Shown here: one piece after another, positions 3,999-48,864 of the stretch | Position numbering within the stretch: the first letter of the stretch is position 1 | Layout: every line of letters begins with the position of its first letter | From: Cyanobacteria bacterium FACHB-471 | GTDB taxonomy: Bacteria > Cyanobacteriota > Cyanobacteriia > Elainellales > Elainellaceae | Reading direction: 5' to 3' | Length of the DNA: 64,000 bases | NCBI GenBank assembly: GCA_014695345.1 | Contig: JACJOC010000084.1 | Coordinates: 124,001-188,000 of the forward strand | The notes under the pieces: generated by a model | Told to the model about the DNA's origin: nothing | The model's input: only the letters and a program-made list of their open reading frames with translations | The model's database searches: none | Made by a program: the position numbers and the translations under genes

Positions 3999-4234
3999 GC
4001 CACTGTTTAGGAGTAACCCAAAACCCTAGATATTAAGATTCAGGTAGTGCAAGAGTAGATTTACTTAGCTTTGATGTCGATTTAAATAGAATCGGGTAAA
4101 GTTAATCAAACAAAGACTGAATTTGAAGCTCAGTTAAAACTGGGGGCACACCACACCTGAGGTCGTCGCTTTGTCCCCGTTGAAATGCACTTTAGCCGAG
4201 GGGCTTTGCCCAGATTAATCAGAGGGACACTGCT

Positions 4235-7200
4235 ATGCTGTCTGAACAACAACAGCGGATTATGGGGTACTTCATTGAGGAGGCGAAAGACCACCTCAAT
4301 ACGATTGAGCAGGGTTTGCTGAATCTGCAAAGTACGATCGCTGACCCAGAAATGGTCAATGAGATGTTCCGAGCGGCACATTCCGTCAAGGGTGGGGCAG
4401 CCATGCTGGGGCTAAACGGAATCCAGCAAACCTCTCATCGCCTGGAAGATTATTTCAAAGTCTTAAAAGAATGCCCTATTCAGGTTGACCAAAAGTTAGA
4501 AACTCTGTTTTTGCGGGTGTTTGATACGCTTCAGGAATTGCTTGAACACCTGCAAGGACCGTTTGGCTTAACCGATGACAAAGCTGAAGAGGTGATGTCG
4601 GACGTGATGCCCGTATTCACAGCACTCAACGAACATCTGGGTCGGCTTGTTAGCCAATGTGGATCGGTGCCCCCCGAAGATGTCGATCTGGGGCTGGAAC
4701 AACCTGTCGCTGCTGCTCCTGCTGCCCCCACAAGGATGCAACCTGTTTCTGAGGAAAGCGCTCTGAGACTAGTATTTCAGAGTGATGTTCCGGCTCAGTT
4801 GCGAGAGATGTTGGGACTGTTTAAGCAAGCAGACCAGCCTGTTAGTCGTGAACAGCTTCAGTTTGTATGCCGTAATCTGGCCCAAGCGGGAGAACAGTTT
4901 GAGTTAGCTCAATGGTGTGAACTGCTGGAACTTGCTCGGCGGGCGATCGCCCACTCCGACAACAGCTACCGCACCCTCGCGCCAACCGTTATCAAAGACA
5001 TTAAGCAAGCCCAAGAGCTTGTTCTGTCTGGTCGTTCTGCCGAAATTTGCTGTAGCGAAAGCCTTAGAGCCTTATTGCCCGCTGAACCTGAACCCGCAGA
5101 AGGTCTGGACGACTTTGCAGACCTGTTGTCTTCAGTAGACTTTGACCGCAGCGACAGCGAACTGGAGCTACCCGACTTCGCGCTTGACACGGATGACGAG
5201 CCACTGACCGCTGCAGAATCTACCGAGCAAGACAATCTGTTTGACCAGGATGATAGCTGGTTCACCGAATCAACTTTCGTTGATGAATCAACTTCTGCTC
5301 AACAAGAGAGCAATTTCTCGGAAGCTGACCTTGGGTTTAGGGAACCCGCTCCAGAGTACAACGATCCAGGTACAGATCTGAATCTAGGGCAACCTTCCAG
5401 TCCATCACGATTCGCAGATCATACGGGTCCAGAAGTCGGGGCGGCTGAGCTAAACAGTTTAGCTGACCTGTTTGAAGGGGAAGTTCCCGATTTGGGAATG
5501 ACCTGGCAGGAGGAAGTCGTGATTGTAGATGCATCTGGGGATTTCTCAGATGCGCTTGATGCAGATGCTTCTAGCGACTTTTCAGACCTGCTGTTTGACC
5601 AGGATGCTCTGGACGACGACCTGTCGCTGCAAACCGAAATTCAGGACGATGACGACCTGTCAGGGCTGCTAAACAGCAGTGAACTCTTTGGCGATAGTTC
5701 TGGAATGAGTCAGTCGTCAGCCTTGGACGATCTAGGCGACTTGATGAACGAAATGCCTGACCAGCCAGAGGGCGATCTAATCGCGAACCTCAATGTTGAA
5801 GCCATAGTTGAAGTCACAGACGAACTGTCTCTGGATTTCTTGGAAAGCGAATTTGAAAGTTCGGATCTGTCCGATCCCTTTGCCGATGTGGAAGTAGACG
5901 AACCAGACACCCAAAGTAGTCTGCCCAAAGCAAGCGGTGACCTGGAAAACCTCACGGATCTGTTTGCCGATCTGGATGAGGATTTCACGGCAGCAGCTTC
6001 TGACCCTTTCTCGTTAAATCATTTAGATCAGGCGTTTACGGCAGAAGAACCTGAACTAGAGCAACCAGATCAAGCTCCTGAACCGTTTGCTGAGCTCCCG
6101 TTTGGTGAACTCCCTGATCCTTTCTCAGACGAAGACGAACTTTCAGAAACCCTGTCTACTAATCAGACAGATCAGGCAGATGATCTGGTTCTGGAGTTGG
6201 ACGACGTTGACCTAAGCAGCTTTGAGACAGATGATTTCTCGATAGACGCAATGGAAATGGAGGGCGACCCCTTGCGGGTATCTCTCGGAGATCGCCCTTC
6301 CTCCGACTCCCTCGAATCTGCTGATGCCGCTCAAGACTGGGAAGTATTGCAAGACTCGAGTGGTGACGATTCTCTCATTGATGCCTTCTTACACGACGAT
6401 GCACCCGTTACTGCAGCAGCTCAACCTGCAGAGGATCTGCTAATTGAAGAAGATTTACCTCTGGAAGAGGAACTGCTGGTAGACACAGAAACGCCGATCG
6501 AAACCTTAGCCGATGATGCATCGCTATTCGTCTCAGAGCCGGATGATGTGTCGCTGTTTGTCTCAGAGCCCGAGGCTCCGCCTGCCGCAGATATACCCAG
6601 CGCAGAGCAAACAGCTTCTTCCGTATTTGATCCTTGGGACGAGGAATTTGAGGAATTTACTCAAACTCAGGGACAACCTTCCTCAATTCACGATTTCGAT
6701 GCGGACGACGACTTTTTTGACTCATTCTCAGGAGTCTCTGTCACTCAAAGCTCGAAAAAGAATCAGGCAGATGCAGATTTGTTTGCCGATCCATTTGACG
6801 ACCCTATTCCGGCTCAACCCGTAACGTCGTCCCAACAGGTCGTGCCGGCCGTACCGCAAGCAGAACCAGAACTTGATTACACTACAGAAGATGAGGCAAC
6901 CTCTGAGGCTTTTAATGACGAAGTACTCGAATCAATGGCCGCAACAGATGCCGCTGCCTTAGGAGGGGTTGTTGTAGAGGAGCTATTTGTAGAGGGCTTC
7001 GTCATAGACCTATCCGAGTCTAAGGACGAACCTGTTTCAGAGCCATCGGAGCCATCTAACTTTGTGGAAGGATTTACTTCCGACTCGTCTGACTTTGTAG
7101 AAGGATTTGTCTTTGACTCGTTTGACACAGAGGAAACTGAATCTGAAGCAGAGTTTGACGGACTGTTTGAACCTGAAGCCAACTTTGCAGCAGAATCACT

Positions 7201-10200
7201 GGATCTCACAGCCAACCCGTCTGACCTAGAAGAAACAGGGGAAGACCTGGAAGGACTTTTTGGAGAAGGGGAAGCAGCGATCGCTCCCTCTCCAACATCC
7301 GATCTTTCAGACGATCCTTTAGACAGCGATACTGGCTTTGACAGCTTGTTTGAGCCAGAGATCACTGAATCGCTTGAGCCAGTTGCTCTCGACCTTTCCT
7401 CAGAAGAAGATACAGAGTTTTCTAGCCTGTTTGGCGAGACGGACGATGAAGCCGATTTGAGCGACTTATCTGCTCCAGATTCATCTGGAACTGACGATGC
7501 CCTTTTCGACCTTGGCACCGTCGAAGACTCAACAGAACCTCAAGGTTTCTCAGAAAACTTATTTGATCTGGAAGACACTACGGGACTAAATCTAGATCTG
7601 ACGGAATCTGCCGCCGATTTAGACTTTGACCTGGGCACAGAAACGGCTGAAACAACAAACTTCAACCTGGATGCCGAAGAAACCGAAGATTTAGGCTTCA
7701 ACTTGGATGCTGATAGTGCGTCGGATCTGGATTTCAACCTGGATACCGATGATACTTCGGATCTAGACTTCAACCTGGATGCTGAAGAAACCGAGGATTT
7801 GGACTTTAGTCTAGATGCTGAAGGAACTGAAGATTTAGGCTTCAACCTAAATGCTGATAGTACTTCGGATCTAGATCTCAACTTAGATGCTGAAGAAACT
7901 GAAGATTTAGGCTTTAACCTGGATGCTGATAGTGCTTCGGATCTGGATTTCAACCTGGATGCTGAGGATGCTGAAGAAACCGAGGATTTGAGCTTTAGTC
8001 TAGATGCTGAAGAAACTGAAGATTTAGGCTTCAACCTGGATGCTGATAGTACTTCGGATCTAGATCTCAACTTGGATGCTGAAGAAACTGAAGATTTAGG
8101 CTTTAACCTGGATGCTGATAGTGCTTCGGATCTGGATTTCAACTTGGATGTTGAGAGCACTGAAGATTTAGGCTTCAACCTGGATACCGAAGGAACTGGG
8201 GATTTGAGCTTTGATCTGGATGCTGATAGTAATTCGGACCTAGACTTCAACCTGGATACTGATAGCACTGAAAGTTTAGAAGCATTGGATGAAGCAATGC
8301 TGAGTCTTGATGACGGTGCAGATGAGCAGGAACAGGATTTTTCAGCCATGTTCGGTGAAGAATCTGGGTTAGATTTCGAAACCGAACTCTCTGCGGCGCA
8401 GGACGTAGAGACTGATGAGGCGTTTAGTTTTGATGAGATGAATGTCGGCGAAGACGCAGGCATTCTAAACGAGGAAACTTTTGACTTTGACCTGTTTGGC
8501 GCAGACGAGGAATTGAGTGAGGAAGCGATCATCTCCAACGATGCGATCGCCTTTGATGAGCTAACAGACACTCCCACCACTGATGCCAACGACCTCGACC
8601 TTGGCGACCTGTCCTTTGGTTCAGAAACCGATCTGGAAGAAATTACAGGCGTTCCAGAAATCAGCGAAATGACTAAAGTAGAAGTTTTGCCTGACCTTTC
8701 GGACTCCAGCCCGGAAGCAGTCGGGATTACTGAAGCGGACGACTTTACTGATTTGGATGCGCTGCTGGGTGATGCTGATGAAGTGGATGAGGCGATCTCG
8801 GAGAGATACCCGCAGGGGGTCGCCCTTGATGCTGAACTCGATGCGATCGAGTCTGATGACTTCGCCGATTTAGATGCCCTGCTGGAAGAATCTACTGCAT
8901 CCACCGCCTCGGTTACAGAATCAGTCGCACCTCTGCAAGACGATTTCGCCGACCTGGATACGTTGCTTGAAGATCAAGTAGCTGAACCCATCTCCCTCGA
9001 TTTTGATGCTTCATCTTCAGAGGCGGTAGACGATTTCGCCGATTTGGACGCACTGTTGGGTGATGATTTTTCAGCCATATCGCCATCTACCCATTCAGCG
9101 AACCCGGCAGTAGAAGCCGTTGACGAATTCGACGACCTGGAAAAGCTGCTGGAAGATGCCGATCAAACTCTGGGCGGTTCACCGACTAGCAAGAACGCCC
9201 GCCGTCCTGCGCTCGCGCCCAATCGCCGCAATACTCGCCGAGGCGGCGGAGTTCTTAGCGACCAGACGATGAGAGTTTCGGTGAAAAACCTGGACAACCT
9301 TAACAACCTGGTTGGGGAACTCGTCGTTAACCGTAACAGCTTGGAGCAAGGACAGGAACGCCTAAGACAGTTTCTGGATAATCTGCTCTACCAGGTGCAG
9401 CAATTGAGCGATGTAGGGCAACGGATGCGCGATTTGTATGAGCGATCGCTCTTAGAAAGCTCCCTGCTCTCCAACCGTAAAAGTTATCAGCTTTCCTCTC
9501 CTGGCAACGGCGGCGGCTCCGCCATAACCCAAAACAGCCACTCCACAGGCTTAAGCTTTGATGCCCTGGAGATGGACCGCTTCACCGGCTTCCATACCCT
9601 TTCCCAGGAAATGATCGAACTGATTGTTAGAGTTAGGGAATCTGCCTCTGACATCGATTTCGTCGTCGATGAAACTGACCAGGTAACGCGCATGTTCCGT
9701 CAGGTCACGACACAGCTTCAGGAAGGCTTAACCCGTTCTCGCATGGTGCCCTTCGCTCAGACAGCCGATCGCCTTCCCAGAGCCGTACGCGACATTTCCC
9801 TTAAGTGCGGCAAACAAGCTGAGCTAACCGTCGAAGGACGGGAAACCCTGATCGACAAAATGATTTTGGAACAGCTTTACGATCCAATGACCCATCTGGT
9901 CAACAACGCCATTACTCATGGCATTGAAACCCCAGAAGAAAGGATCGCAGCCCGCAAGCCGCCGGTTGGACGAATCACCGTTCGCACCTTCCATCAGGGT
10001 AACCAAACTGTCATTTCGGTCACCGACGATGGCGCTGGCATCAATCCCCAGAAGGTCAAAGCCAAAGCGCTGGAAAAAGGCTTAATTACACCAGCCGAAT
10101 CCAGAGAAATGACCGAATTAGATGTCTATGACCTGCTGTTTCATCACGGCTTCTCCACGAAGGACAAAGCAGATGATTTGTCCGGTCGCGGAATCGGTAT

Positions 10201-11212
10201 GGACGTTGTACGTACCAGCTTGAATGAAATTCGCGGTGTAATTAACATTGATTCCACTGTCGGTAAAGGCACCACCTTCACCGTTCGGCTACCGCTCACT
10301 CTCAGCATCTCTAAAGCGCTCTGCTGCATCAGCAACCGTGCTCGCATTGCCTTCCCCATGGACGGGGTAGAGGACATGCTAGACGTACCCAAAGAGCGCA
10401 TTCAAACTGACAGCGAAGGACGCTCCTGCATCCTCTGGCGCGATACGTTGCTGCCCTTCCAGCCGCTATCAGAATTGCTGAAATACAACCGCAGTTTGGG
10501 TCGTGGCAGTGTGTACGGCGGCAACCAGGAAGAAGACATTGTTTCAGTGGTCGTGTTACGCAGCGCAGGCAATTTCCTTGCCCTCCAGGTTGATCAAGTG
10601 CTAGGCGAACAGGAAATTGTAATCAAGCAGCTAGAAGGACCAGTGCCTAAGCCCGTCGGTGTTGCAGGTGCCACCGTGCTAGGGGATGGGCGAATCATGC
10701 CGATCGCCGATGTGCTAGAGCTAATTGACCTCTCTGTCGGTCGGATTCGTCGTGAGGCAGGCAATGCCCTCTGGGAGAAAGAGCAAGAGCCACCCGCCGA
10801 ACCGCCAGTCATCAAGACCGACCCAACGGTGCTGATTGTAGACGACTCCATCACCGTTCGCGAATTGCTCTCAATGACCTTCAACAAAGTGGGCTACCGA
10901 GTCGAGCAAGCGCGTGATGGTCAGGAAGCCTGGGAAAAACTCCGTTCTGGACTGCCCTGCGACCTGGTCTTCTGCGACATCGAGATGCCGCGCATGGACG
11001 GTCTAGAATTGCTCTCACGTATTCAGAAAGACCCTAACTTGGCGCATCTGCCGATCGCAATGCTCACCTCCAGAGGAGCCGATCGCCATCGCCAAATGGC
11101 CGTTCAACTAGGTGCCAAAGGCTACTTCACGAAGCCTTACCTGGAAGAAGCGCTGCTAGATGCTGCTCAACGGATGCTTAAGGGCGAGGTACTCGTTAGC
11201 GGGGATAGTTAG
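4235..11212 (+). CDS. Giant CheA-type hybrid histidine kinase (Hpt-linker-kinase-CheW-receiver)
   Basis: This 2325-residue kinase receives signals from the MCP through CheW. An N-terminal Hpt domain carries the phospho-acceptor His49 in FRAAHSVKGGAAM. Residues about 280-1640 are a very acidic Asp/Glu/Ser/Leu/Phe linker containing seventeen 12-residue repeats (about 1143-1349). Dimerisation and kinase core begin near 1678 (VKNLDNLNNLVGELVVNRNS). The ATPase N box is LVNNAITHGIE near 1890, with later VTDDGAGI and GRGIGMDVV boxes. A CheW-like domain follows (about 2020-2170), then a receiver with Asp in FCDIEMPRMDG and Lys in YFTKPYL. CheA/PilL homologues are usually much shorter; the excess is all linker. 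The linker also contains two translated copies of a 36-bp palindromic element. AGAGGGA precedes the start. No cheR or cheB is adjacent. Confidence 0.95.
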   Translation: MLSEQQQRIMGYFIEEAKDHLNTIEQGLLNLQSTIADPEMVNEMFRAAHSVKGGAAMLGLNGIQQTSHRLEDYFKVLKECPIQVDQKLETLFLRVFDTLQELLEHLQGPFGLTDDKAEEVMSDVMPVFTALNEHLGRLVSQCGSVPPEDVDLGLEQPVAAAPAAPTRMQPVSEESALRLVFQSDVPAQLREMLGLFKQADQPVSREQLQFVCRNLAQAGEQFELAQWCELLELARRAIAHSDNSYRTLAPTVIKDIKQAQELVLSGRSAEICCSESLRALLPAEPEPAEGLDDFADLLSSVDFDRSDSELELPDFALDTDDEPLTAAESTEQDNLFDQDDSWFTESTFVDESTSAQQESNFSEADLGFREPAPEYNDPGTDLNLGQPSSPSRFADHTGPEVGAAELNSLADLFEGEVPDLGMTWQEEVVIVDASGDFSDALDADASSDFSDLLFDQDALDDDLSLQTEIQDDDDLSGLLNSSELFGDSSGMSQSSALDDLGDLMNEMPDQPEGDLIANLNVEAIVEVTDELSLDFLESEFESSDLSDPFADVEVDEPDTQSSLPKASGDLENLTDLFADLDEDFTAAASDPFSLNHLDQAFTAEEPELEQPDQAPEPFAELPFGELPDPFSDEDELSETLSTNQTDQADDLVLELDDVDLSSFETDDFSIDAMEMEGDPLRVSLGDRPSSDSLESADAAQDWEVLQDSSGDDSLIDAFLHDDAPVTAAAQPAEDLLIEEDLPLEEELLVDTETPIETLADDASLFVSEPDDVSLFVSEPEAPPAADIPSAEQTASSVFDPWDEEFEEFTQTQGQPSSIHDFDADDDFFDSFSGVSVTQSSKKNQADADLFADPFDDPIPAQPVTSSQQVVPAVPQAEPELDYTTEDEATSEAFNDEVLESMAATDAAALGGVVVEELFVEGFVIDLSESKDEPVSEPSEPSNFVEGFTSDSSDFVEGFVFDSFDTEETESEAEFDGLFEPEANFAAESLDLTANPSDLEETGEDLEGLFGEGEAAIAPSPTSDLSDDPLDSDTGFDSLFEPEITESLEPVALDLSSEEDTEFSSLFGETDDEADLSDLSAPDSSGTDDALFDLGTVEDSTEPQGFSENLFDLEDTTGLNLDLTESAADLDFDLGTETAETTNFNLDAEETEDLGFNLDADSASDLDFNLDTDDTSDLDFNLDAEETEDLDFSLDAEGTEDLGFNLNADSTSDLDLNLDAEETEDLGFNLDADSASDLDFNLDAEDAEETEDLSFSLDAEETEDLGFNLDADSTSDLDLNLDAEETEDLGFNLDADSASDLDFNLDVESTEDLGFNLDTEGTGDLSFDLDADSNSDLDFNLDTDSTESLEALDEAMLSLDDGADEQEQDFSAMFGEESGLDFETELSAAQDVETDEAFSFDEMNVGEDAGILNEETFDFDLFGADEELSEEAIISNDAIAFDELTDTPTTDANDLDLGDLSFGSETDLEEITGVPEISEMTKVEVLPDLSDSSPEAVGITEADDFTDLDALLGDADEVDEAISERYPQGVALDAELDAIESDDFADLDALLEESTASTASVTESVAPLQDDFADLDTLLEDQVAEPISLDFDASSSEAVDDFADLDALLGDDFSAISPSTHSANPAVEAVDEFDDLEKLLEDADQTLGGSPTSKNARRPALAPNRRNTRRGGGVLSDQTMRVSVKNLDNLNNLVGELVVNRNSLEQGQERLRQFLDNLLYQVQQLSDVGQRMRDLYERSLLESSLLSNRKSYQLSSPGNGGGSAITQNSHSTGLSFDALEMDRFTGFHTLSQEMIELIVRVRESASDIDFVVDETDQVTRMFRQVTTQLQEGLTRSRMVPFAQTADRLPRAVRDISLKCGKQAELTVEGRETLIDKMILEQLYDPMTHLVNNAITHGIETPEERIAARKPPVGRITVRTFHQGNQTVISVTDDGAGINPQKVKAKALEKGLITPAESREMTELDVYDLLFHHGFSTKDKADDLSGRGIGMDVVRTSLNEIRGVINIDSTVGKGTTFTVRLPLTLSISKALCCISNRARIAFPMDGVEDMLDVPKERIQTDSEGRSCILWRDTLLPFQPLSELLKYNRSLGRGSVYGGNQEEDIVSVVVLRSAGNFLALQVDQVLGEQEIVIKQLEGPVPKPVGVAGATVLGDGRIMPIADVLELIDLSVGRIRREAGNALWEKEQEPPAEPPVIKTDPTVLIVDDSITVRELLSMTFNKVGYRVEQARDGQEAWEKLRSGLPCDLVFCDIEMPRMDGLELLSRIQKDPNLAHLPIAMLTSRGADRHRQMAVQLGAKGYFTKPYLEEALLDAAQRMLKGEVLVSGDS
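6262..6297 (+). repeat. 36-bp palindromic element, copy A, translated inside cheA
   Basis: An element with inverted ends (GGGCGA...TCGCCC) and a shared interior containing GCGGGTATCTCTC. It recurs inverted at 8791-8825 and directly at 17771-17806. Here it encodes roughly residues 676-688 (GDPLRVSLGDRP) and its 36-bp length keeps the frame. The encoded basic/Pro-containing segment interrupts an otherwise acidic linker. Confidence 0.8.
7661..8281 (+). repeat. 36-bp tandem repeats encoding 17 acidic 12-residue units in CheA
   Basis: Units follow the pattern FNLDAEETEDLG or FNLDADSASDLD, alternating in places, with one unit lengthened by three residues. They span residues about 1143-1349. Several neighbouring units are nearly identical at DNA level, which suggests recent expansion by slippage or unequal recombination. 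Confidence 0.92.
8791..8825 (-). repeat. 36-bp palindromic element, copy B, inverted and translated inside cheA
   Basis: Same element as 6262-6297 in the opposite orientation, with only a few substitutions. It encodes AISERYPQGVA near residue 1519, again in frame and again unlike the surrounding acidic sequence. Confidence 0.8.
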
Positions 11213-11296
11213 TTTCATGTTGCCTGATTAATAAGTTTAAGGGTGGGGCGATCGCTCCCCCTAAAGACACATTCACAAAAGGACATCCATAATTCC

Positions 11297-11408
11297 TAGT
11301 TCCCAAGCTCCAGCCTGAGAATTGCCTAAAGAAGCTCTAGCTTTCTCCGAATTTAGAAGGAAGTTGGAGCTTCAGTTCAGCATTACCAAGCTTCAGCTTG
11401 GCAACGAG
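11297..11408. repeat. Cluster of AAGCTC/AAGCTT inverted motifs (interspersed-repeat relic)
   Basis: The 295-base gap between cheA and hslO contains repeated short inverted units such as CCCAAGCTCCAGC, GAAGCTCTAGC, TTGGAGCTTC and the hairpin CCAAGCTTCAGCTTGG (11386-11401), followed by CAACGAG. Motifs of the type CCAAGCT...AGCTTGG-AACGAG are common interspersed palindromes in cyanobacteria. No gene is seen in this gap. Confidence 0.5.
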
Positions 11409-11507
11409 TAAACGGATATCCACCCGCACGTAGTCCGTCTGACTTCGGCTATTAAACAGACACCGTAGAATGGAATAAGGGACTATTAAGAAGTATTTAG
11501 GATTTTC

Positions 11508-12416
11508 ATGGCGGATCAGTTAGTTCGAGCGACGGCAGCAGATGGAGGAATTCGCACCGTCGGCGTAATTACCACACGTCTTACAGAAGAAGCCAGACAG
11601 CGCCACAACCTTTCCTACGTTGCGACTGCAGCACTAGGGCGAACCATGTCAGCAGGGCTTCTGCTTGCCTCCAGCATGAAGCGACCCGAATCACGAGTGA
11701 ACATTCGGATCAATGGTGACGGTCCGTTAGGTGGCATCCTAGTTGATGCCGGATTAGATGGAACCGTGCGTGGCTACGTCGATAACCCAACCGTAGAACT
11801 TCCTCCTAGCCCAATTGGCAAGCTGGATGTGGGTGCGGCTGTAGGTCATAACGGCTACCTATATGTCGTTAGAGATGTGGGCTACGGCTATCCTTACTCC
11901 AGTACGGTAGAGCTGGTTTCTGGAGAAATTGGGGACGATGTCACTCACTATCTCGTTAGCTCTGAGCAAACTCCCTCAGCTCTCGTTTTGGGCGTGTTTG
12001 TCAGTGCTGAAGGGGTAACGGCATCGGGTGGGCTACTTGTGCAGGTAATGCCCAAAGCTGCCAGAGATGAAGCCCTAGTGCAACTGTTAGAATCTCGCGT
12101 TGCTTCTCTAGCTGGGTTTACCCCATTACTCAAAGAGGGTAAATCGCTGCAACAGATGTTTGAGCAACTGTTGGGCGATATGAATCTGGAAATTTTTCCA
12201 GAAACTCAGATGTTGCGCTTCCACTGCGGTTGTTCCTTCGATCGCGTCTTAGGAGCCTTGAAGATGTTGGGCAAGGACGAGCTGCGAGACATGATCGAAA
12301 AAGACGACGGAGCCGAAGCTACCTGCCATTTCTGCAACGAAGTATATCAGGCTAGCAGCGATGAGCTGGAACAGTTGATTCGAGATTTGCAGGCAGAAGC
12401 AGGGGCTAGGGGGTAA
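11508..12416 (+). CDS. hslO: Hsp33 redox-regulated chaperone
   Basis: A cytosolic holdase chaperone activated by oxidation. Length 302 residues fits the family. The N-terminal core starts ADQLVRATAADGGIR and includes the substrate-binding region. The C-terminal zinc redox switch has all four cysteines as CGCSFDR (CxC) and CHFCNE (CxxC). It follows the chemosensory operon after a 295-base gap with repeats and probably has its own promoter. Its last codons and TAA fall inside a heptamer array (12403-12444), so the terminal GARG is repeat-encoded. Confidence 0.96.
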   Translation: MADQLVRATAADGGIRTVGVITTRLTEEARQRHNLSYVATAALGRTMSAGLLLASSMKRPESRVNIRINGDGPLGGILVDAGLDGTVRGYVDNPTVELPPSPIGKLDVGAAVGHNGYLYVVRDVGYGYPYSSTVELVSGEIGDDVTHYLVSSEQTPSALVLGVFVSAEGVTASGGLLVQVMPKAARDEALVQLLESRVASLAGFTPLLKEGKSLQQMFEQLLGDMNLEIFPETQMLRFHCGCSFDRVLGALKMLGKDELRDMIEKDDGAEATCHFCNEVYQASSDELEQLIRDLQAEAGARG

Positions 12417-12444
12417 AGGGGGTAAGAGACCAGGAACTAGGGGG
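12403..12444. repeat. Degenerate heptamer (STRR-like) array at the hslO stop codon
   Basis: Six consecutive 7-mers in phase: GGGCTAG, GGGGTAA, AGGGGGT, AAGAGAC, CAGGAAC, TAGGGGG. Short tandemly repeated heptamers (STRR) are a known cyanobacterial repeat class. The hslO stop codon TAA (12414-12416) is part of unit two. Confidence 0.6.
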
Positions 12445-12493
12445 ATGCAGGAGCTTCGCTCTGCTAATGTCTGGGGACATTCAATCTTCCATT

Positions 12494-12528
12494 CTCTAGC
12501 CCCCAGCCTCTAGTCTCTAGCCCCCAGA
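12494..12528. repeat. Heptamer (STRR-like) array
   Basis: Five in-phase 7-mers: CTCTAGC, CCCCAGC, CTCTAGT, CTCTAGC, CCCCAGA. It lies in the gap between hslO and the helical-repeat gene, and is roughly complementary in character to the G-rich array at 12403-12444, so the two could pair in RNA. Confidence 0.65.
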
Positions 12529-12623
12529 AAGTGGCGTTTTCCTCCATTGAGGAGTAGGATTGCAACTATTGCGTACTGCTGCTCGACGATCTAGGTTGCT
12601 GCGCCATTGTTGTGGGCTGGGAT

Positions 12624-14720
12624 ATGAGTAAAGATTGGGGAACACCGGAGCATCGTCCAGATTTGGGGCGAGCACATCGAATTCCTAAAAAGCTGCCTAA
12701 AGTACCTGCGTCTCGCAAACGTCCGTTGCCTCGGCAGGGTCCACCTATGCCAAAGTTGCCTGCGCCTGAGTCTTCTTTGTTGCGTCCAACTGTCCAACCG
12801 ATGCCGGGAGGGCAACGATCGCCCCGTCCGATTCCACCCGCTGAGCAGTTGCCCTACGCCCAGCTTACGACAGCGCAATCGCCTCATCTTCCTGGTGCAG
12901 ACTATCCAGAAGACCCTCAACAGGCAAGACAGCATAGATTACAGTTGCCCAAGCTGCGAGTTCCAACCAGTCTCAAGTTTTGGGCGATCGCTTCTGTAGT
13001 TACGCTGACTGGAGTTAGCATCGTTTCGGTTGCGCTATTGCTGAAGCTGCCTGCGGTACCAAACTGTCCGTCGATTTTCTGGCCGACTGCATCAGCATCT
13101 TTGCGGCTGTATTGCGCTCAACTGGCAGCAAACAAGCAAACGGCAAATGACTTGCTGGAGGCGATTGAGCTAATCAACAGTCTGCCTGCCGACCATCCCC
13201 TACGTCCAGAAATCAACCGCCACATTGAGGACTGGTCGCAACAAGTTTTGGACTTGGCAGAGGAAGCCTTTGATCAGGGTAAGTTTTCAGAAGCATTGGA
13301 TATTGCCAACAAAATTCCTGCTGACACCTCTGCTCGTGCCCAAGTACAGGAACGGGTCGATCGCTGGAACGGAATTTGGGCAGAAGCGGAGAAGATTTAC
13401 AAAGACGCAGAAGCCGCCCTTCGGCAGCAGGATTTGCGAAAGGCATTTGATATTGCGGTTGGGTTGTTGTCCGTCGATAACACTTACTGGAAGACTACTA
13501 AATATGACGAGTTGAACGGGTTGATTAATGCGACTCGTGAGGATGCAGCGAAACTCGCTGAGGCAAGACGGTTTATCGATCGAGGAGGTCTGTCCAACCT
13601 GAGCGAGGCAGTCAAGCTGGCAGAAGAAATTGGTGATGGCAGCTATGCCTATGGTGAAGCCCAAAAGGTAATCACTGAAGCGGGCAAAGGAATGCTGGAG
13701 CTAGCAGAATCAGCGTTAAATCGTCAGGATGCAGATGAGGCGATCGCCATTTTGCGTCGCATTCCCGAACGCGCCAACTTGGAGGCAGAAGCTCAAGATT
13801 TGACTCATTTAGCATCCGCTTATTCCCAATCGTGGGGCGGTACGGTTGCCGATCTGGAAGCTGCAATCGTTCAAGCACAGCGACTGCGGCAGGGTCGTCC
13901 ACTTTATGGCAGAGCACAGGAATTAATCACCCAGTGGCAGGCAGAAATACAAGACATCATGCGGCTGGAAACGGCAAGACAGTTAGCGCAACCTGGCTCT
14001 GTGGGAGATTTGCGAGCGGCGATCGCCGAGGCAGAGCAAATTCCGCGTGGCAATCCACGTCGGGCTGAGGCGCGAGAGGCGATCGCCGGCTGGACTCGTG
14101 AAGCTGAGACGATGGAAGACAGACCCATCCTAGATACAGCCGATCGGTTTGCTAATAGCGGTGATCTGACATCAGCCATTGAGCAGGCTAATCGAATTGG
14201 GTCGGGTCGTGCCCTGTCTGATGAGGCGCGTCAGCGGGTGCGAGATTGGACAGATCAAATTCAGCGCACTCAAGACCAGCCTTATCTAGACCGGGCGAGA
14301 GAACTAGCTGCCCTGGGCAACTTACCAGAAGCGATTGCCCTGGCAGAGCAAATTGGTCAGGGACGCGCCCTCTACGACGAGGCGCAGGCAGATATTCGTA
14401 CCTGGCGTAACCAGACTCTGGGGCAAGAGCGAATGCAGCAGGCCTACGAGGCAGCTGGCATTAGCACAACGACTGGGTTGCTTGCAGCAATTCGCACGGC
14501 CGAGCAAGTTCCTGAGGACAGCCCAACTCGCCCAGAAGCTGAACAGATGATCAACCTCTGGAGTCAGCAGATTTTGCAGGCCGCCCAGCAGCAGGCTGGA
14601 TACGATTTGGAGGGAGCGATCGCCACTGCTGAGAGCATTCCACCTCGTACTGAAGCTTATGACGCTGCCCAGCTCCAGGCCCAAACCTGGCGACAGCAGC
14701 TAACGGGTGAAGAGCTTTAG
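12624..14720 (+). CDS. Membrane-anchored TPR-like helical-repeat protein of unknown function
   Basis: I do not recognise a characterised family. Of 698 residues, the first ~110 are Pro/Arg/Gln-rich and probably unstructured. One membrane segment follows (LKFWAIASVVTLTGVSIVSV, about residues 115-140), then about 550 residues of repeated helical hairpins. The repeat is recognisable as LxEAIxLAEQIxxGxxxYxEAQxxIxxWxxQ (for example LPEAIALAEQIGQGRALYDE), an amphipathic unit of about 55 residues that resembles TPR/SEL1-like solenoids. Orientation is probably N-terminus inside and solenoid outside or in the periplasm. ATG 12624 is preferred to the GTG at 12612. It could be a scaffold for envelope or pilus proteins; that is a guess. 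Confidence 0.75.
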   Translation: MSKDWGTPEHRPDLGRAHRIPKKLPKVPASRKRPLPRQGPPMPKLPAPESSLLRPTVQPMPGGQRSPRPIPPAEQLPYAQLTTAQSPHLPGADYPEDPQQARQHRLQLPKLRVPTSLKFWAIASVVTLTGVSIVSVALLLKLPAVPNCPSIFWPTASASLRLYCAQLAANKQTANDLLEAIELINSLPADHPLRPEINRHIEDWSQQVLDLAEEAFDQGKFSEALDIANKIPADTSARAQVQERVDRWNGIWAEAEKIYKDAEAALRQQDLRKAFDIAVGLLSVDNTYWKTTKYDELNGLINATREDAAKLAEARRFIDRGGLSNLSEAVKLAEEIGDGSYAYGEAQKVITEAGKGMLELAESALNRQDADEAIAILRRIPERANLEAEAQDLTHLASAYSQSWGGTVADLEAAIVQAQRLRQGRPLYGRAQELITQWQAEIQDIMRLETARQLAQPGSVGDLRAAIAEAEQIPRGNPRRAEAREAIAGWTREAETMEDRPILDTADRFANSGDLTSAIEQANRIGSGRALSDEARQRVRDWTDQIQRTQDQPYLDRARELAALGNLPEAIALAEQIGQGRALYDEAQADIRTWRNQTLGQERMQQAYEAAGISTTTGLLAAIRTAEQVPEDSPTRPEAEQMINLWSQQILQAAQQQAGYDLEGAIATAESIPPRTEAYDAAQLQAQTWRQQLTGEEL

Positions 14721-14904
14721 GTCGGGATAGTTTGTGCTTGGCACTTACCTTGGCACTACCCTTTGTGTTTAACACTACATAGAGGCGAGGCATTTTGTCT
14801 CTGTGAGGAATACCCATTGGGTTTCCTTGAGACAGATGGCAAAGTTTTGTGTCGTAGACTAAACCTTTAAAAGAGGCGCATTTACAAGTCTCTTAAAGCA
14901 TTTT

Positions 14905-15639
14905 ATGAAGGCATGGTTACGTCAAAGAAAGTCTCTACTGCTGGTTTTGCTTGGAGTACTAGTTGCGATACTCGTAGCGACAAGTGCGCTACCGCTAAAG
15001 GAATGGTCAGTTGGGCTAAATGAGTGGCTGCGCTCGCTCGGCTGGTGGGCAATTCCCGCATTTATTGTGATTTACGTGCTGGTAAGTGTTGCAGGCTTGC
15101 CCAACATTGCGTTGATTTTAGTTGCAGGAACCGTTTTTGGTTTAGTCGTAGGCATTGCGTCTGCGTCCGTTGCCGATACGTTGGGTGCCGTTGTTTGTTT
15201 TGGTCTGGGTCGAACAGTTGCCCGCAAACGGGTGAAGAAACTGATGCAGCGCTATCCTACCTTTGGGCAGCTTGATCAGGCGATCGCCAAAAAAGGCTGG
15301 AAAATTCTACTCCTCAGTCGCCTTTCGCCGATCATTCCCTCCAACGTGCTGAACTATGGCTTTAGCTGCACCAAAGTCAATTTCTGGCAGTACTTCTTCT
15401 TTACCTGGCTGGGAATGATTCCGGTGATCGCGCTGTATGTCTACATCGGCTATTTCGGCACATCCATCATCGGTGGCGACAATTCTCCTCGCTCCCTGAT
15501 TCTCCAAGGTGGAGGGCTACTAGCAACAGCAGGGGTCGCTATCTACACCACGCGACTAGCAAAAACAGCACTCTCACAGCCAGACGAGCAAAAGGAGGGA
15601 GAGAATGAGAAGAATGAGGATAAGAAAGATGAGGGATAA
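14905..15639 (+). CDS. TVP38/TMEM64 (DedA-superfamily) membrane protein
   Basis: A polytopic inner-membrane protein of 244 residues. The first segment is LLLVLLGVLVAILVATSALP. The family core contains AGTVFGLVVGIASASVADTLGAV (split) and the motif FGLGRTVAR, followed by LLLSRLSPIIPSNVLNYGFS, which carries the conserved Arg and Pro-Asn of SNARE-associated/DedA proteins. These proteins are linked to lipid or proton-coupled transport. The last ~17 residues are charged (Glu/Lys/Asp) and appear to be encoded by purine-rich heptamer-like sequence, so the native C-terminus has probably been extended by a repeat. Confidence 0.88.
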   Translation: MKAWLRQRKSLLLVLLGVLVAILVATSALPLKEWSVGLNEWLRSLGWWAIPAFIVIYVLVSVAGLPNIALILVAGTVFGLVVGIASASVADTLGAVVCFGLGRTVARKRVKKLMQRYPTFGQLDQAIAKKGWKILLLSRLSPIIPSNVLNYGFSCTKVNFWQYFFFTWLGMIPVIALYVYIGYFGTSIIGGDNSPRSLILQGGGLLATAGVAIYTTRLAKTALSQPDEQKEGENEKNEDKKDEG

Positions 15640-15653
15640 GGAATGACAACTTC

Positions 15654-15681
15654 CTGCCCTAACCCCTAGCTCCTAGTCTCT
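15654..15681. repeat. Heptamer array in a convergent gene junction
   Basis: Four in-phase 7-mers: CTGCCCT, AACCCCT, AGCTCCT, AGTCTCT. It fills most of the 33-base gap between the TVP38-family gene (+) and the TIR-WD40 gene (-) and contributes the stop codon of the latter (15673-15675). Confidence 0.55.
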
Positions 15682-17664
15682 TCCACAAAGCTGGCGATCG
15701 CTCTCATCAATCGCAGGATTAGTGTTCAAGTAGTCTTTTAGCCAATCGCATCCTTGCTGTAGAAAGGTGGTTAGGTCGGTATTAGAGAGCGATCGCACCG
15801 AGTCATCTTGATTCCCCATTACGCTTTCATTAGCCCTTGATATAACGCTTAGTTCCTCCTGCTCCACTTCAAGTCCTGAAGCTTGGCGGCTAGAATCCCA
15901 CAATCGCACAGTGCCATCCTCTCCTGCTGTCGCAAGCTGCTTTCCGTCAGGGCTAAATCGCACGACATTTACACCGCTTTGATGTCCTATGAATTTGGCT
16001 AATTGCTGTCCAGAGAGATCCCAGAGCTTAATTCTGCCATCTTCTCCGGCTGTCGCAAGCTGGGTTCCATCAGAGCTGAACTGAATACTCGTAACTTCAA
16101 CCGGGTGAGCTTTGAATTCTCCAATCTTTTCACCAGAAATATTCCAAAGCCAGACCGTGCCATCTTCTCCTGCTGCTGCAAGTTGTGTTCCGTCTGAGTG
16201 AAAATCGACACTGCTAAACTCACTTCCATCTCCTCTAAACTCAACAGGTGGCTTTCCTGACAAATCCCAGAGCCGTATCGTGTCATCTCTCCCAGAGGAA
16301 GCAATCTGAGTACCGTCAGGGCTGAAGCTGATACTGCTGACTTCTCCTGTATGTCCTTGAAACTGTCGGGACTGACCTGAAAAGCTCCACAATCTAACGA
16401 TCCCATCTTCTCCGGCTGTAGCCACTTGTCTACCACCGGGACTGAAACTGACATCAGTAAGTCCGGTTGGGTAAATTCTAAGGGCAACCAGTTGTTGCTC
16501 AGCCAGATCCCAAAGCTGTAACATTCCATTTTCTCCGGCGATCGCAAGCTGCATCCCGTCAGGGCTAAAACTAATGTTGCTGACTTCATCTGGGTGTCCG
16601 GCAATCTCGGCTAGCTTTTCTCCTGTCAAACTCCAGATCCGGGTCACGCCATCCTCTCCGGCCGTAGCAATTTGACCCCCATTAGGATTAAAACTGATGC
16701 CATTCACCTCACCGGGATGGGCTGGAATTCGATTCTGTTCTTGAATATTTTGCAGAATGGTTTGCAGAGCCAGCACAGGACTGAGTGTTGGATATTGCTC
16801 AACAGAACGATTCTCCACCATCGACTGCAAATATCGTCCAGCTTTGATTGCTTTCAACAGACCATCTAATTGAGATGAGTCAAATTGCTCCAACGCATCG
16901 TCTGTTTCTTGCTCCAATCGGTTGACTATCTTGGTATGGAGCTGTTGTTGAAACGCCTGAACCGTGACAACTGTTGCCGCCGCTAAAGTCACTAGAGCAA
17001 TGCCCATGACCAGGGTGGCAATTCGGAGTCTACGCTTTGCTGTCTCATTTGCCTGAGCAATTCGCTCACTAAAATCTTCTGCCTCTCGACTTTTGCTAAT
17101 GTAGTTTTTTTGCTGCTCAGTTGGCTGAGGATCTTTATTGGCACTCTGTTGCAACCATTGCTCTGCATCTTTTAGGTTGCTGCCGCGCAATAAAAAGCTG
17201 TCGTTGCGACCCTTGTCTTCCCATTCCAAAGTGCGAACGAGAATTTGAGTGTGAGTATGCAAATGCTCCAGGTCAGTATCGATCGCCTTGATTAAAGCTT
17301 GAAAGGCAGTATCAAAGTCATCATTCTCTCGAAAAAATAACCAGTTGTGACTCGCTAACGCAGGATGCAGCAAGGCTTGATTCAATTCTTCTCGATGCAC
17401 AATCGGCACTAAACGCTTGTTGTGCAGCACTGCGTGCTCAACTTCCCGCCGACAAACAGAAGAAGTAATGGAATCTGGGCTGATGATAAAGACAAAAGTA
17501 TTTGCCCCTTCGATACCGCGTTTGATCTCTTGCCACCAGTCGGCAGTGAGGGGAATGTCCTGCCAATCAATCCAGGCTTCTCGTCCTGTAGCTTCTAGCG
17601 CAGCATGAAGTAATTGGGTAAAGACTTTATCCTTGCGGGAGTAAGAAATGAAGATGTCGGTCAT
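15673..17664 (-). CDS. TIR domain - transmembrane - WD40 repeat protein
   Basis: A 663-residue signalling protein. An N-terminal TIR domain (about 1-140) starts DIFISYSRKDKVFTQ, with IDWQDIPLTADWWQEI and FIISPDSITSSVCRREVEHA; the Glu in CRREVEHA is at the position of the catalytic Glu of NAD-consuming TIRs (family knowledge, alignment by eye). A linker and one membrane segment (ATLVMGIALVTLAAATVV, about 213-238) follow, then seven WD40 repeats (about 318-591), each ending like GEDGTVRLWD, which should close one propeller. ATG 17664 is chosen over an upstream in-frame start at 17694 because AGGGGCAGC precedes it and the TIR fold begins there. It stands alone between convergent and tandem neighbours. 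A sensor-effector role in defence or cell death is inference. Confidence 0.88.
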   Translation of the reverse strand: MTDIFISYSRKDKVFTQLLHAALEATGREAWIDWQDIPLTADWWQEIKRGIEGANTFVFIISPDSITSSVCRREVEHAVLHNKRLVPIVHREELNQALLHPALASHNWLFFRENDDFDTAFQALIKAIDTDLEHLHTHTQILVRTLEWEDKGRNDSFLLRGSNLKDAEQWLQQSANKDPQPTEQQKNYISKSREAEDFSERIAQANETAKRRLRIATLVMGIALVTLAAATVVTVQAFQQQLHTKIVNRLEQETDDALEQFDSSQLDGLLKAIKAGRYLQSMVENRSVEQYPTLSPVLALQTILQNIQEQNRIPAHPGEVNGISFNPNGGQIATAGEDGVTRIWSLTGEKLAEIAGHPDEVSNISFSPDGMQLAIAGENGMLQLWDLAEQQLVALRIYPTGLTDVSFSPGGRQVATAGEDGIVRLWSFSGQSRQFQGHTGEVSSISFSPDGTQIASSGRDDTIRLWDLSGKPPVEFRGDGSEFSSVDFHSDGTQLAAAGEDGTVWLWNISGEKIGEFKAHPVEVTSIQFSSDGTQLATAGEDGRIKLWDLSGQQLAKFIGHQSGVNVVRFSPDGKQLATAGEDGTVRLWDSSRQASGLEVEQEELSVISRANESVMGNQDDSVRSLSNTDLTTFLQQGCDWLKDYLNTNPAIDESDRQLCGRD

Positions 17665-17770
17665 GCTGCCCCTGCTAAAGCGAGATCTGAACACAAGATA
17701 CCTGTGCTTTGAGAAAAATTGCAGAGGAGTTTACTAAATTTCTTGAGCAGATGAACAGGGTGAGCAGAGA

Positions 17771-17806
17771 GGCGCCCCCCTGCGGGTATCTCTCCGAGAT
17801 CGCCCC
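17771..17806 (+). repeat. 36-bp palindromic element, copy C, intergenic
   Basis: Third copy of the element found at 6262-6297 and 8791-8825, with the shared core TGCGGGTATCTCTC and GATCGCCCC end. It abuts the stop codon of the Uma2 gene at 17807 on the opposite strand and could form a hairpin in its transcript. Confidence 0.8.
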
Positions 17807-18475
17807 TTATTCTTCTGGCTCAATGCCAGCGGCGCGTAGCTGTGCTGCCAGTCGCTCTGCCCGTTGACGCTCCTGTTCTGCTCGTTGGCGTTCTTGCTTC
17901 AGCGCCTGTGCCAATTCTTCGGAGACTAGTAGCTTTTCACCCGTGTCTTCGCGATAAAAATTAAGTAGCTGTGCTTCAACCTGCAAGCGCAGGGCTAACG
18001 GCTCACTACGCCCATCAGTAATTGATTCATAAATCTCACCCCGGAGGCGATATCCTTGCAACTGCCCCTCAATCCATTCACCTTTGGGGTCAAACAGCCA
18101 ATATTCTCGTACCCCCATCTGTTCATACAGAGTTTTCCTATGGACCTTGTCCTGCTCACGGGTGCCTTCTGATGTGATTTCAAAGATGACGGCAGGCACC
18201 TGACCTTCCTCCCACGCTTTATAGTTGTCGCGGGGTCCAGGCACTACATCAAATATCACCATGACATCAGGAGCAACGCGCAGCCGGGGAAATCCTTCAG
18301 CAAAATAAAAAAACTGGTTGCTCAACACGATGGCTTGCTGACCTTCCAGATAAAGGCGCAGAGCAGTGATAATCGCAATGATTGCATCTACATGAATTGA
18401 AGTCTCTGCCAAGGGTTCACCGTCAGAACTGGGGTAGATGATTGTAGTTGGCTCAGTCGGGACGTAGGCAGTCAT
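17807..18475 (-). CDS. Uma2 family protein (DUF820, PD-(D/E)XK nuclease-like)
   Basis: A 222-residue member of the family expanded in cyanobacteria. The nuclease-like core is visible as RVAPDVMVIFDV (catalytic Asp), VIFEITSEGT (Glu in the ExK-like strand) and KRKTLYE-type helix followed by MGVREYWLFDPKG. Residues about 185-220 form a Glu/Arg/Gln coiled coil (LAQALKQERQRAEQERQRAE). The biological role is not established; some members are thought to be mobile-element or restriction related. It is monocistronic, with the next upstream gene (crtD) 151 bases away across a heptamer array. Confidence 0.88.
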   Translation of the reverse strand: MTAYVPTEPTTIIYPSSDGEPLAETSIHVDAIIAIITALRLYLEGQQAIVLSNQFFYFAEGFPRLRVAPDVMVIFDVVPGPRDNYKAWEEGQVPAVIFEITSEGTREQDKVHRKTLYEQMGVREYWLFDPKGEWIEGQLQGYRLRGEIYESITDGRSEPLALRLQVEAQLLNFYREDTGEKLLVSEELAQALKQERQRAEQERQRAERLAAQLRAAGIEPEE

Positions 18476-18513
18476 AAGAATTGCCGATTCTTAGAATTAG
18501 GGCTGGTAGTTAA

Positions 18514-18562
18514 TCATTAGTCACTGATCATTGTCGTTGACCACTGGCTATTAGTCGTTAGG
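18514..18562. repeat. Degenerate heptamer (TCATTAG-like) array
   Basis: Seven in-phase 7-mers: TCATTAG, TCACTGA, TCATTGT, CGTTGAC, CACTGGC, TATTAGT, CGTTAGG. It lies between the Uma2 gene and crtD and is related to the arrays at 23742 and 42792. Confidence 0.55.
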
Positions 18563-18626
18563 TGTTGGCTTACATGAATGACTAATAGCTAATGACCTTA
18601 ATCTTATTTTGCCTTCATCAGATGTC

Positions 18627-20150
18627 CTATGCCTCAATCTGCCGAACAACGGTAAGAGCAGAATAGCTTACCCCTGCGGTGCCTTCACCGGGATGAGTAG
18701 AGTCTCCAACCAGCCAAAGGTGCTTGACTGGCGTACGATTGGCAAATCCAAACGGGCCAAAGGTGGGGATGCGTTGACCAATGCCGCCGACAATGCCGCG
18801 ATCGCGCCCTGTAAAGTGAGCAAAGGTGCGTGGCGTTGCCGCTTCAGTATGAACCAGGGTTTCAGGAGTGAGGTGAAAGAATTGGGATAAGCGGGCGATC
18901 GCCTCTTCCGTATACTGCTGCTTCAATGACTCATAGTTGTCGCAGTGTGACCAGATTGTTGGATCAGTGAATGAGGAAGCAATTACCGTAGCCTTGCCCT
19001 CTGGTGCACGCCCATCTCCAGGATGGCTAACCGAGACAAATAAAGAATTGTTTTCACCAATTGGTCCGTCGTAGTCGTAGAGAAACTGAAGATGTGGTGG
19101 ACAATCAGCAGGAATAGCAGATTGGTCAACACCCAGATACACCACAAATGCGCCCGATGCTGAAGGCAATTTTTCTACTCGTCGCTCATAGCCTTTGGGA
19201 GCTTCTGTGCCCAATAGCTGCATCAAATTTTGCACAGTGACGTTAGCGACGATGTGGTCAGCGGTTTCTGTCCAGATTTCGCCTGTTTTTTGGTTGCGAA
19301 TGGCGATCGCCTTTGCCTGCCCATTCTCTGTATAGATCTGCTCAACGGTGTGACGCATCAGCAGTTTGCCGCCATCCCGCTCTAGAGATGCGACGAGGCG
19401 ATCGCTCAATACCTGCATACTGCCCTGCAAATGATAAAGTCCCTGTGGCTCCTGAGAAACCCCTAGCGCAGTTGCTGCATAGAGCAGCGCCGTGTCTTCT
19501 GCATCAACTTGAGAATAAAGCTTGAGCTGAAGGTCAAGAAATGTTTTGAGACGGCGATCGCTCCCCAACCCATACCAGCGCAATACCTGACCCACCGTTG
19601 AGAAAGTATGTGGCAGAGTAAACAGCGTTCCTGGACGAACTGCCTGAACAAGCTGCCCAAAATCCCACAGGTTACGGGGCGGCAACACCGGATCGCGGGA
19701 CTGAAATGCCCAGCTATAGCGAAACAAGTCTGCCATCAGTTGCCAAAATGGTTCACTGCCTGGGAACTGCCGCTGTCGCTCAGCCTGCCAGCGATCGGGG
19801 TCACGCCAAACGCTGATCGGTTGAGTTTCTCCTGGCAAATACACTGCACAAGCCGGATCGCAAGGAGTTGCTTCTGGCAAATCAATGTCTAATTCTGCAA
19901 AGATCCGATGGTGAATTCCTCCGGGTTCTAACCCTGCAACTTGAGTCGCACCAACATCAAACGTAAACCCGCGTCGCTTAAACGTCGAAGCACACCCACC
20001 CGGCACCAGCGCCTGGTCTAGCACCAACACCTGATAACCCCGATGCGCTAATAGCGCCGCTGCGGTCAGTCCCCCAATACCCGCCCCAATCACGACTACT
20101 CGTTTAGCTTTGGAATAGGTACGACTCGACATTGGAAACCTGCCAACCAT
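18627..20150 (-). CDS. crtD: CrtD-like carotenoid desaturase (C-3',4' desaturase, FAD-dependent)
   Basis: A 507-residue flavoprotein of the phytoene desaturase/isomerase family. An N-terminal FAD-binding motif reads VVIGAGIGGLTAAALLAHRG, followed by VPGGCASTFKRRGFTFDVGA. The C-terminal FAD contact is LWLVGDSTHPGEGTAGVSYS. Sequence features such as TQVAGLEPGGIHHRIFAEL match cyanobacterial CrtD, which desaturates myxol-type carotenoids during myxoxanthophyll synthesis; CrtH/CrtO are the alternatives. ATG 20150 is kept because AAGGA lies 9 bases upstream; ATG 20132 is another possibility. No other carotenoid genes are nearby. Confidence 0.8.
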   Translation of the reverse strand: MVGRFPMSSRTYSKAKRVVVIGAGIGGLTAAALLAHRGYQVLVLDQALVPGGCASTFKRRGFTFDVGATQVAGLEPGGIHHRIFAELDIDLPEATPCDPACAVYLPGETQPISVWRDPDRWQAERQRQFPGSEPFWQLMADLFRYSWAFQSRDPVLPPRNLWDFGQLVQAVRPGTLFTLPHTFSTVGQVLRWYGLGSDRRLKTFLDLQLKLYSQVDAEDTALLYAATALGVSQEPQGLYHLQGSMQVLSDRLVASLERDGGKLLMRHTVEQIYTENGQAKAIAIRNQKTGEIWTETADHIVANVTVQNLMQLLGTEAPKGYERRVEKLPSASGAFVVYLGVDQSAIPADCPPHLQFLYDYDGPIGENNSLFVSVSHPGDGRAPEGKATVIASSFTDPTIWSHCDNYESLKQQYTEEAIARLSQFFHLTPETLVHTEAATPRTFAHFTGRDRGIVGGIGQRIPTFGPFGFANRTPVKHLWLVGDSTHPGEGTAGVSYSALTVVRQIEA

Positions 20151-20390
20151 GATTTACATTCCTTAATACTCTTATCATATTTCACCCTTAGAACTTTTGC
20201 TTGATAAGGTAAGAGTAAGCAAAACCTTGGTACTGCTATTTCAATTTGAGCTTGAGTACAGCGTGAAGATAGTAGGCAGCTTGTTCAAATCTCGCTTCTC
20301 CAATTACCCAGAATTAGAGCCACTGTGTACTAGAAGAAGAGAAAGGTGAAATTAACTCAGATGACATATGACTAGGTTTACTGACACTTA

Positions 20391-20483
20391 AAGCCATTTT
20401 TGGATGAGTAAGCCATAGCGTAGGGGCAGTTCGCGAACTGCCCCTACAGGGACTTGTGGTTTATCTAAGTGGAGATTGCTGTA
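20391..20483. repeat. MITE-like palindromic element, copy 1
   Basis: It carries a perfect 26-bp palindrome at 20421-20446 (arms TAGGGGCAGTTCG/CGAACTGCCCCTA). About 30 bases on each side are shared with copy 2 (42291-42385): AAGCCATAGCG on the left and ACAGGGACTTGTGGTT on the right. It lies in the 429-base gap between crtD and the Uma2 gene. The rest of that gap shows no gene. Confidence 0.8.
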
Positions 20484-42241: not shown

Positions 42242-42290
42242 TAATTTGTCCAGAATTCGTTCAAAGTTTGTTCAGAACTGAGCCAGGAAT

Positions 42291-42385
42291 TACAGCCATT
42301 TTCGGATGGGTAAGCCATAGCGTAGGGGCAGTTCGCAAACTGCCCCTACAGGGACTTGTGGTTGATCGAAGTGGAAACTGCTGTA
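42291..42385. repeat. MITE-like palindromic element, copy 2
   Basis: A 95-bp element with imperfect terminal inverted repeats (TACAGCCATTTTC and, reversed, TACAGCAGTTTCC). The central palindrome at 42323-42348 has one central mismatch relative to copy 1. It is nearly identical to 20391-20483 over its length. It sits inside the second chemosensory operon between the cheY and cheW genes. Confidence 0.85.
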
Positions 42386-48436: not shown

Positions 48437-48618
48437 TACACAATCCTTTAACAGTGAGTAGAGCAACCTGAAATCACTTGACATCGGTTGAATTGACCCC
48501 ATCAAAATACGCAATTCGCAAAAGTACCAGGTTCAGTAAAGCCACAGAACTTTCGAGAGCAACAAAATTGGCGATCGCCCTTCACGCCCGTATTTTTGCT
48601 GGAAATTGTAAACAAAAA

Positions 48619-48793: not shown

Positions 48794-48864
48794 GGGGCGA
48801 TCGCTTTGAGCGATGGCTTAGCTCAGCCAGGAGATTTGAGAAATCTAGTTTTTGCCTAAACAGC

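Follow-up and report, generated by a model that had tools for sequence, protein, structure and literature searches.

Copies of a 24-nt module within HIP1 octamers of a cyanobacterial genome: a probable SDR5-type mobile element

What are the nearly identical short repeats that occur twice inside one cheA-like gene, and once between genes, in a 64,000-nt stretch of the genome of Cyanobacteria bacterium FACHB-471 (positions 124,001 to 188,000 of contig JACJOC010000084.1, hereafter the window)? An earlier note on this DNA took them for a 36-bp mobile palindrome, comparable in behaviour to the Rickettsia palindromic elements (RPEs). The three copies are real: the 34-nt core GGCGACCCCCTGCGGGTATCTCTCCGAGATCGCC matched the 64-kb window at three places with three mismatches or fewer, compared with a mean of 0.00 in 100 dinucleotide shuffles. 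The 35–36 bp given in the note consist of this core and, at one end or both, one neighbouring base. Comparison with related genomes revealed a unit of fixed length that is gained or lost at HIP1 (GCGATCGC), an octamer very frequent in cyanobacteria, or at near-HIP1 words, in both orientations and in two families of different sequence. The repeats are very probably copies of a very small mobile element of the SDR5 type, a 24-nt module put into HIP1 octamers; we liken them to SDR5 by target and length, not by sequence.

4235-11212, plus strand: open reading frame (ORF) of 2,325 aa for a cheA-like hybrid histidine kinase, carrying copies 1 and 2
6263-6296, plus strand: copy 1, in cheA, 2 mismatches to the core; HIP1 part GGCG, 24-nt module, HIP1 part ATCGCC
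6267-6290, plus strand: 24-nt module of copy 1, written as inserted at GCG^ATCGC
8791-8824, minus strand: copy 2, inverted, in cheA, 0 mismatches to the core
8797-8820, minus strand: 24-nt module of copy 2, placed from the sequence and the orthologue comparison
17771-17804, plus strand: copy 3, intergenic, 1 mismatch to the core
17807-18475, minus strand: Uma2-family ORF, with copy 3 located 2 bp past its stop codon (downstream)

Occupied and empty HIP1 sites

The mobile part is the 24-nt module (genus consensus ACCCCTTGCGGGTATCTCTTCGAG), which lies within HIP1 at the insertion point GCG^ATCGC, the placements GC^ and GCGA^ being equivalent. Judged from the sequence, the apparent inverted ends of the repeat are the two halves of HIP1, that is, the target, and lie outside the mobile unit. 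The idea of a small mobile palindrome therefore stood as far as a small, dispersed, mobile sequence is concerned, but the unit is 24 nt long and its inverted ends are those of HIP1.

We compared the flanks of copies between related genomes and counted ten type I sites, where HIP1 halves form the ends of the copy, with an empty allele. The genomes included the present one (G000, 7.15 Mb) and two congeners, G001 and G002, which are the metagenome-assembled genomes Leptolyngbyaceae cyanobacterium RM1_406_9 and SM1_4_3. At seven of the ten sites the empty allele was exactly HIP1. Since HIP1 occurs only about once per 680 bp (10,461 times in the 7.15 Mb of G000, against 129 for the reversed word), the agreement greatly exceeds chance. 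Only a small fraction of HIP1 sites is occupied by the module. The length difference was exactly 24 nt at six of the ten sites (B, D, L087, L092, L096 and L226; flank spacing 10 vs 34), and in 10 of 11 comparisons (ten sites, with site B compared in two genomes) the joined flanks scored above those containing the module, for instance by 103 to 76 at cheA copy 2.

cheA copies 1 and 2: empty allele exactly HIP1, in G002 (L140)
Site C: empty allele exactly HIP1, in G000 (L003)
Second genus, empty alleles exactly HIP1: L087/L202; L092:11438/L198; L096:14914/L217; L226:9459/L278
12806-12826, plus strand: site A, empty in the window (GGGCAACGATCGCCCC), within ORF 12612-14720; filled in both congeners (L021, L047)

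The count leaves out the paralogous comparisons at site B, where the words were not HIP1, two pairs with both members filled (L034/L156, L005/L143), the pairs L233/L271 (spacing 25), L230/L249 (123) and L215/L096 (57), L187 compared with itself, and L228:4291, which with 12 mismatches was rejected as a copy.

Both cheA copies lie in frame in acidic sequence, as the earlier note had stated. The ORF has Hpt, H-kinase_dim, HATPase_c, CheW and Response_reg domains, and by coordinates the copies fall between Hpt and H-kinase_dim, at residues ~677-688 and ~1519-1530. Copy 1 is translated as GDPLRVSLGDRP, which without the module reads GDRP, and copy 2 as EAISERYPQGVA, which without the module reads EAIA; at each site the module adds eight in-frame codons and leaves the reading frame unbroken. 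The orthologous cheA of G002 lacks both segments and carries plain HIP1 at both places, read at the place of copy 2 as GAGGCGATCGCCC. The empty sites sought in orthologous cheA genes thus exist, and conservation of the segments at the protein level, the outcome that the earlier note had set against its own proposal, was not found in this orthologue. The two octapeptides are probably neutral in the acidic linker. The same linker contains coding tandem repeats with a period of 36 bp (window 7580-8334).

The surroundings of copy 3 were unaligned in G001 and G002, and this copy stands outside the empty-site comparison. About 3.6 kb (window ~15066-18627), with a WD40-repeat ORF, the Uma2 ORF and copy 3, has no aligned counterpart in G001:C88 and G002:C380, contigs that are collinear with the window elsewhere. 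The window also holds other repeats: about 120 bp at 11291-11414 have many partial matches on both strands in both congeners; a dispersed repeat around the palindrome GTAGGGGCAGTTCGCGAACTGCCCCTAC lies at 20388-20483, 42290-42385 and 58200-58295, its third copy including a perfect inverted repeat with 31-bp arms (58215-58276); and direct repeats spaced 41 bp occur at 48614-48797.

Distribution, coding context and a sister family

Further copies were found in the genome and its relatives. At three mismatches or fewer to the 24-nt core, G000 carries 12 copies and the congeners 16 and 20, while the other 57 genomes searched gave matches in only two (one and three), all at three mismatches. Copies are known in both orientations. 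A covariance model run on 40 genomes gave 82 matches in G020 and 22 in G011 at E ≤ 1, many of them weak; these genomes belong to other genera of the same family. At E ≤ 1e-6 the element is carried by 25 of the 388 genomes of the class, eight in this family, 16 in another family (f16) and one in a third, with at most 18 candidates scored per genome, so that counts per genome are lower bounds. Searches of plasmids and phages with the 34-mer gave no convincing relative; 200 kb of a Nostoc sp. C052 plasmid held one match, with a loop 13 nt longer. Matches in Chroococcidiopsis were rejected as ordinary sequence of a conserved multicopper-oxidase gene. In viral_contigs, six stretches contained an exact 21-mer, and two of them, on one contig, share flanks with G020 copies; these two are uninformative about viruses. 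G020 also contains a MITE-like (miniature inverted-repeat transposable element) repeat of ~160 bp (L092:5867-6027), 91-98% identical at several tens of places and more diverged in its congener G028.

Read in any of the six frames, the consensus is free of stop codons. At nine mismatches or fewer, the genus set comprised 57 copies, equal to 37 distinct sites, of which 31 lie in a stop-free frame of at least 150 codons, three in one of 80-149 codons and three in shorter frames. Toleration of insertion in coding DNA is borne out, the element lying within ORFs that it leaves intact. When positions near locus ends are set aside, the fraction in long frames was 30/35 for copies, 446/521 for HIP1 sites and 2,027/2,373 for random 34-mers (678 HIP1 sites and 3,000 random 34-mers before those near ends were removed), under a rule that also takes in shadow frames, equally in the controls. 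Genes are thus neither preferred nor avoided. All six frames are in use among the 31 long-frame sites (9, 8, 7, 3, 3 and 1), and the element keeps no frame. A conserved peptide or convergence was rejected as the origin of the copies because they agree at the DNA level across opposite orientations and at an intergenic place, and because the orthologue is empty.

We also made an unbiased list of indels of 15-70 bp, 33 between G020 and G028 and 20 within the genus. The commonest length was 24 bp in both, with seven of 33 (three first-family modules, two sister units, two others) and six of 20 (four first-family modules, two others). Among the 53 long indels, four were flagged at HIP1; two of these were the element and two, of 18 and 27 bp, were not. 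Further elements escaped the flag because of sliding of the alignment. A 27-bp insertion, TAGCGCTCCGCGCAACGCCGCAGGAAC, is present at HIP1 (GGCGAT^CGC) in both congeners relative to the window (L035:7345, L047:4585); it is unlike the element in sequence, and elsewhere in the loci compared it had one match only, at seven mismatches.

The sister unit (GCGACCCTTGCGGTATCTGCGAAGCAGCGCGC) was found in 29 copies at eight mismatches or fewer in the loci compared. Its family differs in sequence (ACCCTTGCGGTATCTGCGAAGCAG) and shares the net gain of 24 nt and the target, with the AT of HIP1 reading CG beside the unit. Three empty sites read GCGATCGC, ACGATCGC and, in the element's orientation, GCAATCGC, and the joined flanks won in all three comparisons. 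Many first-family copies in G020 and G028 likewise end in CG or CA in place of AT; for these, no empty site was found among the comparisons of the two genomes. We rejected GCGNNCGC as a general target of such copies: apart from HIP1 itself, words of this form are rare (86 of 1,348 in 795 kb of G020), so their availability does not account for the copies, and the sister-family empty sites have AT at that place. In G001 and three f16 genomes, related stretches (L147, L177, L179 and L185) carry first- and sister-family units at differing places, with some copies empty, and their open frames vary in length.

Predicted fold, enzymes and competing explanations

As single-stranded DNA, the element is predicted to fold in both orientations into a three-way junction (-8.8 and -9.2 kcal/mol; z -2.34 and -1.98), with an outer stem GGGCG/CGCCC formed by the HIP1 halves and the hairpins ACCC(5)GGGT and ATCTC(3)GAGAT. 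For RNA, z was -1.61 and -2.14, and one strand favours a different fold. "Palindromic" is a loose term for the element, its modelled fold being a three-way junction with two short hairpins. Rfam gave no match at the elements (window 4000-20000, E ≤ 1; two sub-threshold matches elsewhere). The unit would move as a folded single strand, RNA or DNA, of two hairpins, which the HIP1 halves would close into the three-way junction, and an enzyme would join it into a cut or gapped HIP1 site. The usual direction would be gain, as suggested by site B, which is filled in one of three genomes while the paralogous domain compared there is empty in each of the three, and by the patchy distribution (25 of 388 genomes).

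Candidate enzymes were searched for in 36 genomes. PF01797 (Y1 transposase) matched in 25, this genome included; it had no match in G020, an assembly of 30 contigs and 100% completeness whose congener G028 was not searched. PF00078 (reverse transcriptase) matched in 24, of which 23 were over the Pfam cut-off, with no match in G011 and a single sub-cut-off match in G020. Among the 36 genomes, no enzyme of the Y1 or reverse-transcriptase class was common to the carriers. An RNA intermediate may be copied by an enzyme other than a dedicated reverse transcriptase. Tentatively, HIP1 may be the landing place for an activity encoded by the host, one that accepts any stem-loop unit with suitable fold and length: the two families (ACCCCTTGCGGGTATCTCTTCGAG, ACCCTTGCGGTATCTGCGAAGCAG) share fold, 24-nt length and target but differ in sequence, and the carrier genomes searched have no Y1 transposase and no confident reverse transcriptase in common.

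Several results weigh against an SDR5-type element inserted at HIP1. Three of the ten empty alleles are not exact: one is a single base off HIP1 (ACGATCGC, site A) and two read GCAATTGC (site B in G001 and G002, site D in G001). The length difference was 21 nt at site A and 27 nt at site C, with other changes nearby, and at cheA copy 2 it was confounded by further gaps. At cheA copy 1, the sole exception in the alignment scores, the joined flanks reached 78 against 80 with the module, and only HIP1 is clear there. Four of the thirteen 24-bp indels are unrelated to either unit. Structural support from covariation in the first family is thin: none was seen in a set of 33 sequences; in a set of 73 the score was weak, being reached by 8 of 500 shuffles, and a slid control had more double-change cells (15 vs 11). 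In the sister family (alignment A5, without two of the 29 sequences, L186 and L272:808) a pair of the second hairpin changes from UA to GC in six of 22 distinct sequences, with a covariation score reached by 0 of 500 shuffles; it is the single pair with double changes, and their count was reached by 481 of 500 shuffles. The shuffles, for either family, ignore how the sequences are related. Finally, no enzyme for the movement was found, and no movement was observed, in the genomes compared.

Precise excision, by which the module would be ancestral and lost from the empty genomes with HIP1 restored, is unlikely. Site D, filled in G000 and G002 and empty in G001, would need one precise loss (or else two gains), given that G001 and G002 look nearer to each other (93.8% identity at another locus, vs 72-73% with G000). 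However, the HIP1 halves are inverted and not direct repeats, so that simple slippage would not restore HIP1, and both site B and the patchy distribution favour gain. Template switching during replication, or repair, at HIP1 would dispense with a dedicated enzyme, with another HIP1-flanked copy serving as template for the module. This is possible, if rather doubtful: the HIP1 halves offer identical short arms at thousands of sites, and the lack of a shared Y1 transposase or above-cut-off reverse transcriptase in the carriers fits it, but arms of 3-5 nt would hardly yield an identical net 24 nt in two families that differ in sequence.

A unit resembling repetitive extragenic palindromic (REP) sequences, moved as single-stranded hairpins by a Y1 HuH transposase (REP-associated tyrosine transposase, RAYT, or IS200 type), would agree with the small hairpin unit, the fixed short target and the 25 genomes with PF01797. 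We consider it quite improbable, since the copies are mostly intragenic and G020, with the most model matches, gave no match to PF01797. Retention for an encoded peptide, as in the RPEs, has in its favour the two in-frame cheA copies and the 31 sites in long ORFs; it is nevertheless hardly credible in view of the six frames used, the coding share equal to that of the controls, the HIP1 target and the length of 24 nt compared with the ~150 bp described for RPEs (PMC10969869). What survives of the RPE comparison is the position in unbroken ORFs; enrichment in genes and a single frame are not seen, and the counts by location and phase that the earlier note had in mind point away from it. An SDR5-type element fits better.

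Relation to known small repeats

Elhai et al. (2008, Genome Res 18:1484) reportedly described, in Nostoc punctiforme and its relatives, eight families of small dispersed repeats 21-27 nt long, some of which share a fold, and are said to have proposed RNA intermediates. The present element would agree with SDR5 in being a folded unit within 21-27 nt, its exact length of 24 nt being found at six of ten sites. As for the target, SDR5 is described as lying between nucleotides 3 and 4 of HIP1, and cutting at HIP1 has been suggested as something that may explain its insertion in part (PMC4390886). The same precise position, also in cyanobacteria, is used here, and the empty alleles are exact HIP1 at seven sites and near-HIP1 at three. 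Looking for part of the element's sequence in published text brought up unrelated subjects only. Here, in addition, the carriers include congeners labelled Leptolyngbyaceae, the insertions in cheA are in frame, and there is a sister family with CG for the AT of HIP1; we do not present either the coding insertions or the sister family as new to the literature.

The RPEs are likewise small, dispersed and inserted in frame within ORFs, but they are described as ~150 bp long with a conserved encoded peptide, whereas the element has 24 nt, uses six frames and targets HIP1 (PMC10969869). REP sequences and REPINs with their RAYT (TnpA-REP) are similarly short dispersed hairpin repeats without a gene of their own; they are extragenic and Y1-associated (PMC3116915, PMC6006769), in contrast to a mostly intragenic element with a HIP1 target and no Y1 match in the richest genome. 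A MITE carries its own terminal inverted repeats and duplicates its target site; here the inverted ends belong to HIP1, and the sequence would allow a duplication of no more than 2 nt (GA). HIP1 itself, although its halves form the ends of type I copies, is the target and not the mobile unit.

The case bears on the great abundance of HIP1 and on the way in which the smallest mobile repeats move. It supplies ten sites, filled and empty in related genomes, at which the target word is clear; a second family that shares net length and target with the first; and a negative result for Y1 transposase in the genome richest in copies. The mobile unit also makes proteins eight residues longer while the reading frame stays intact.

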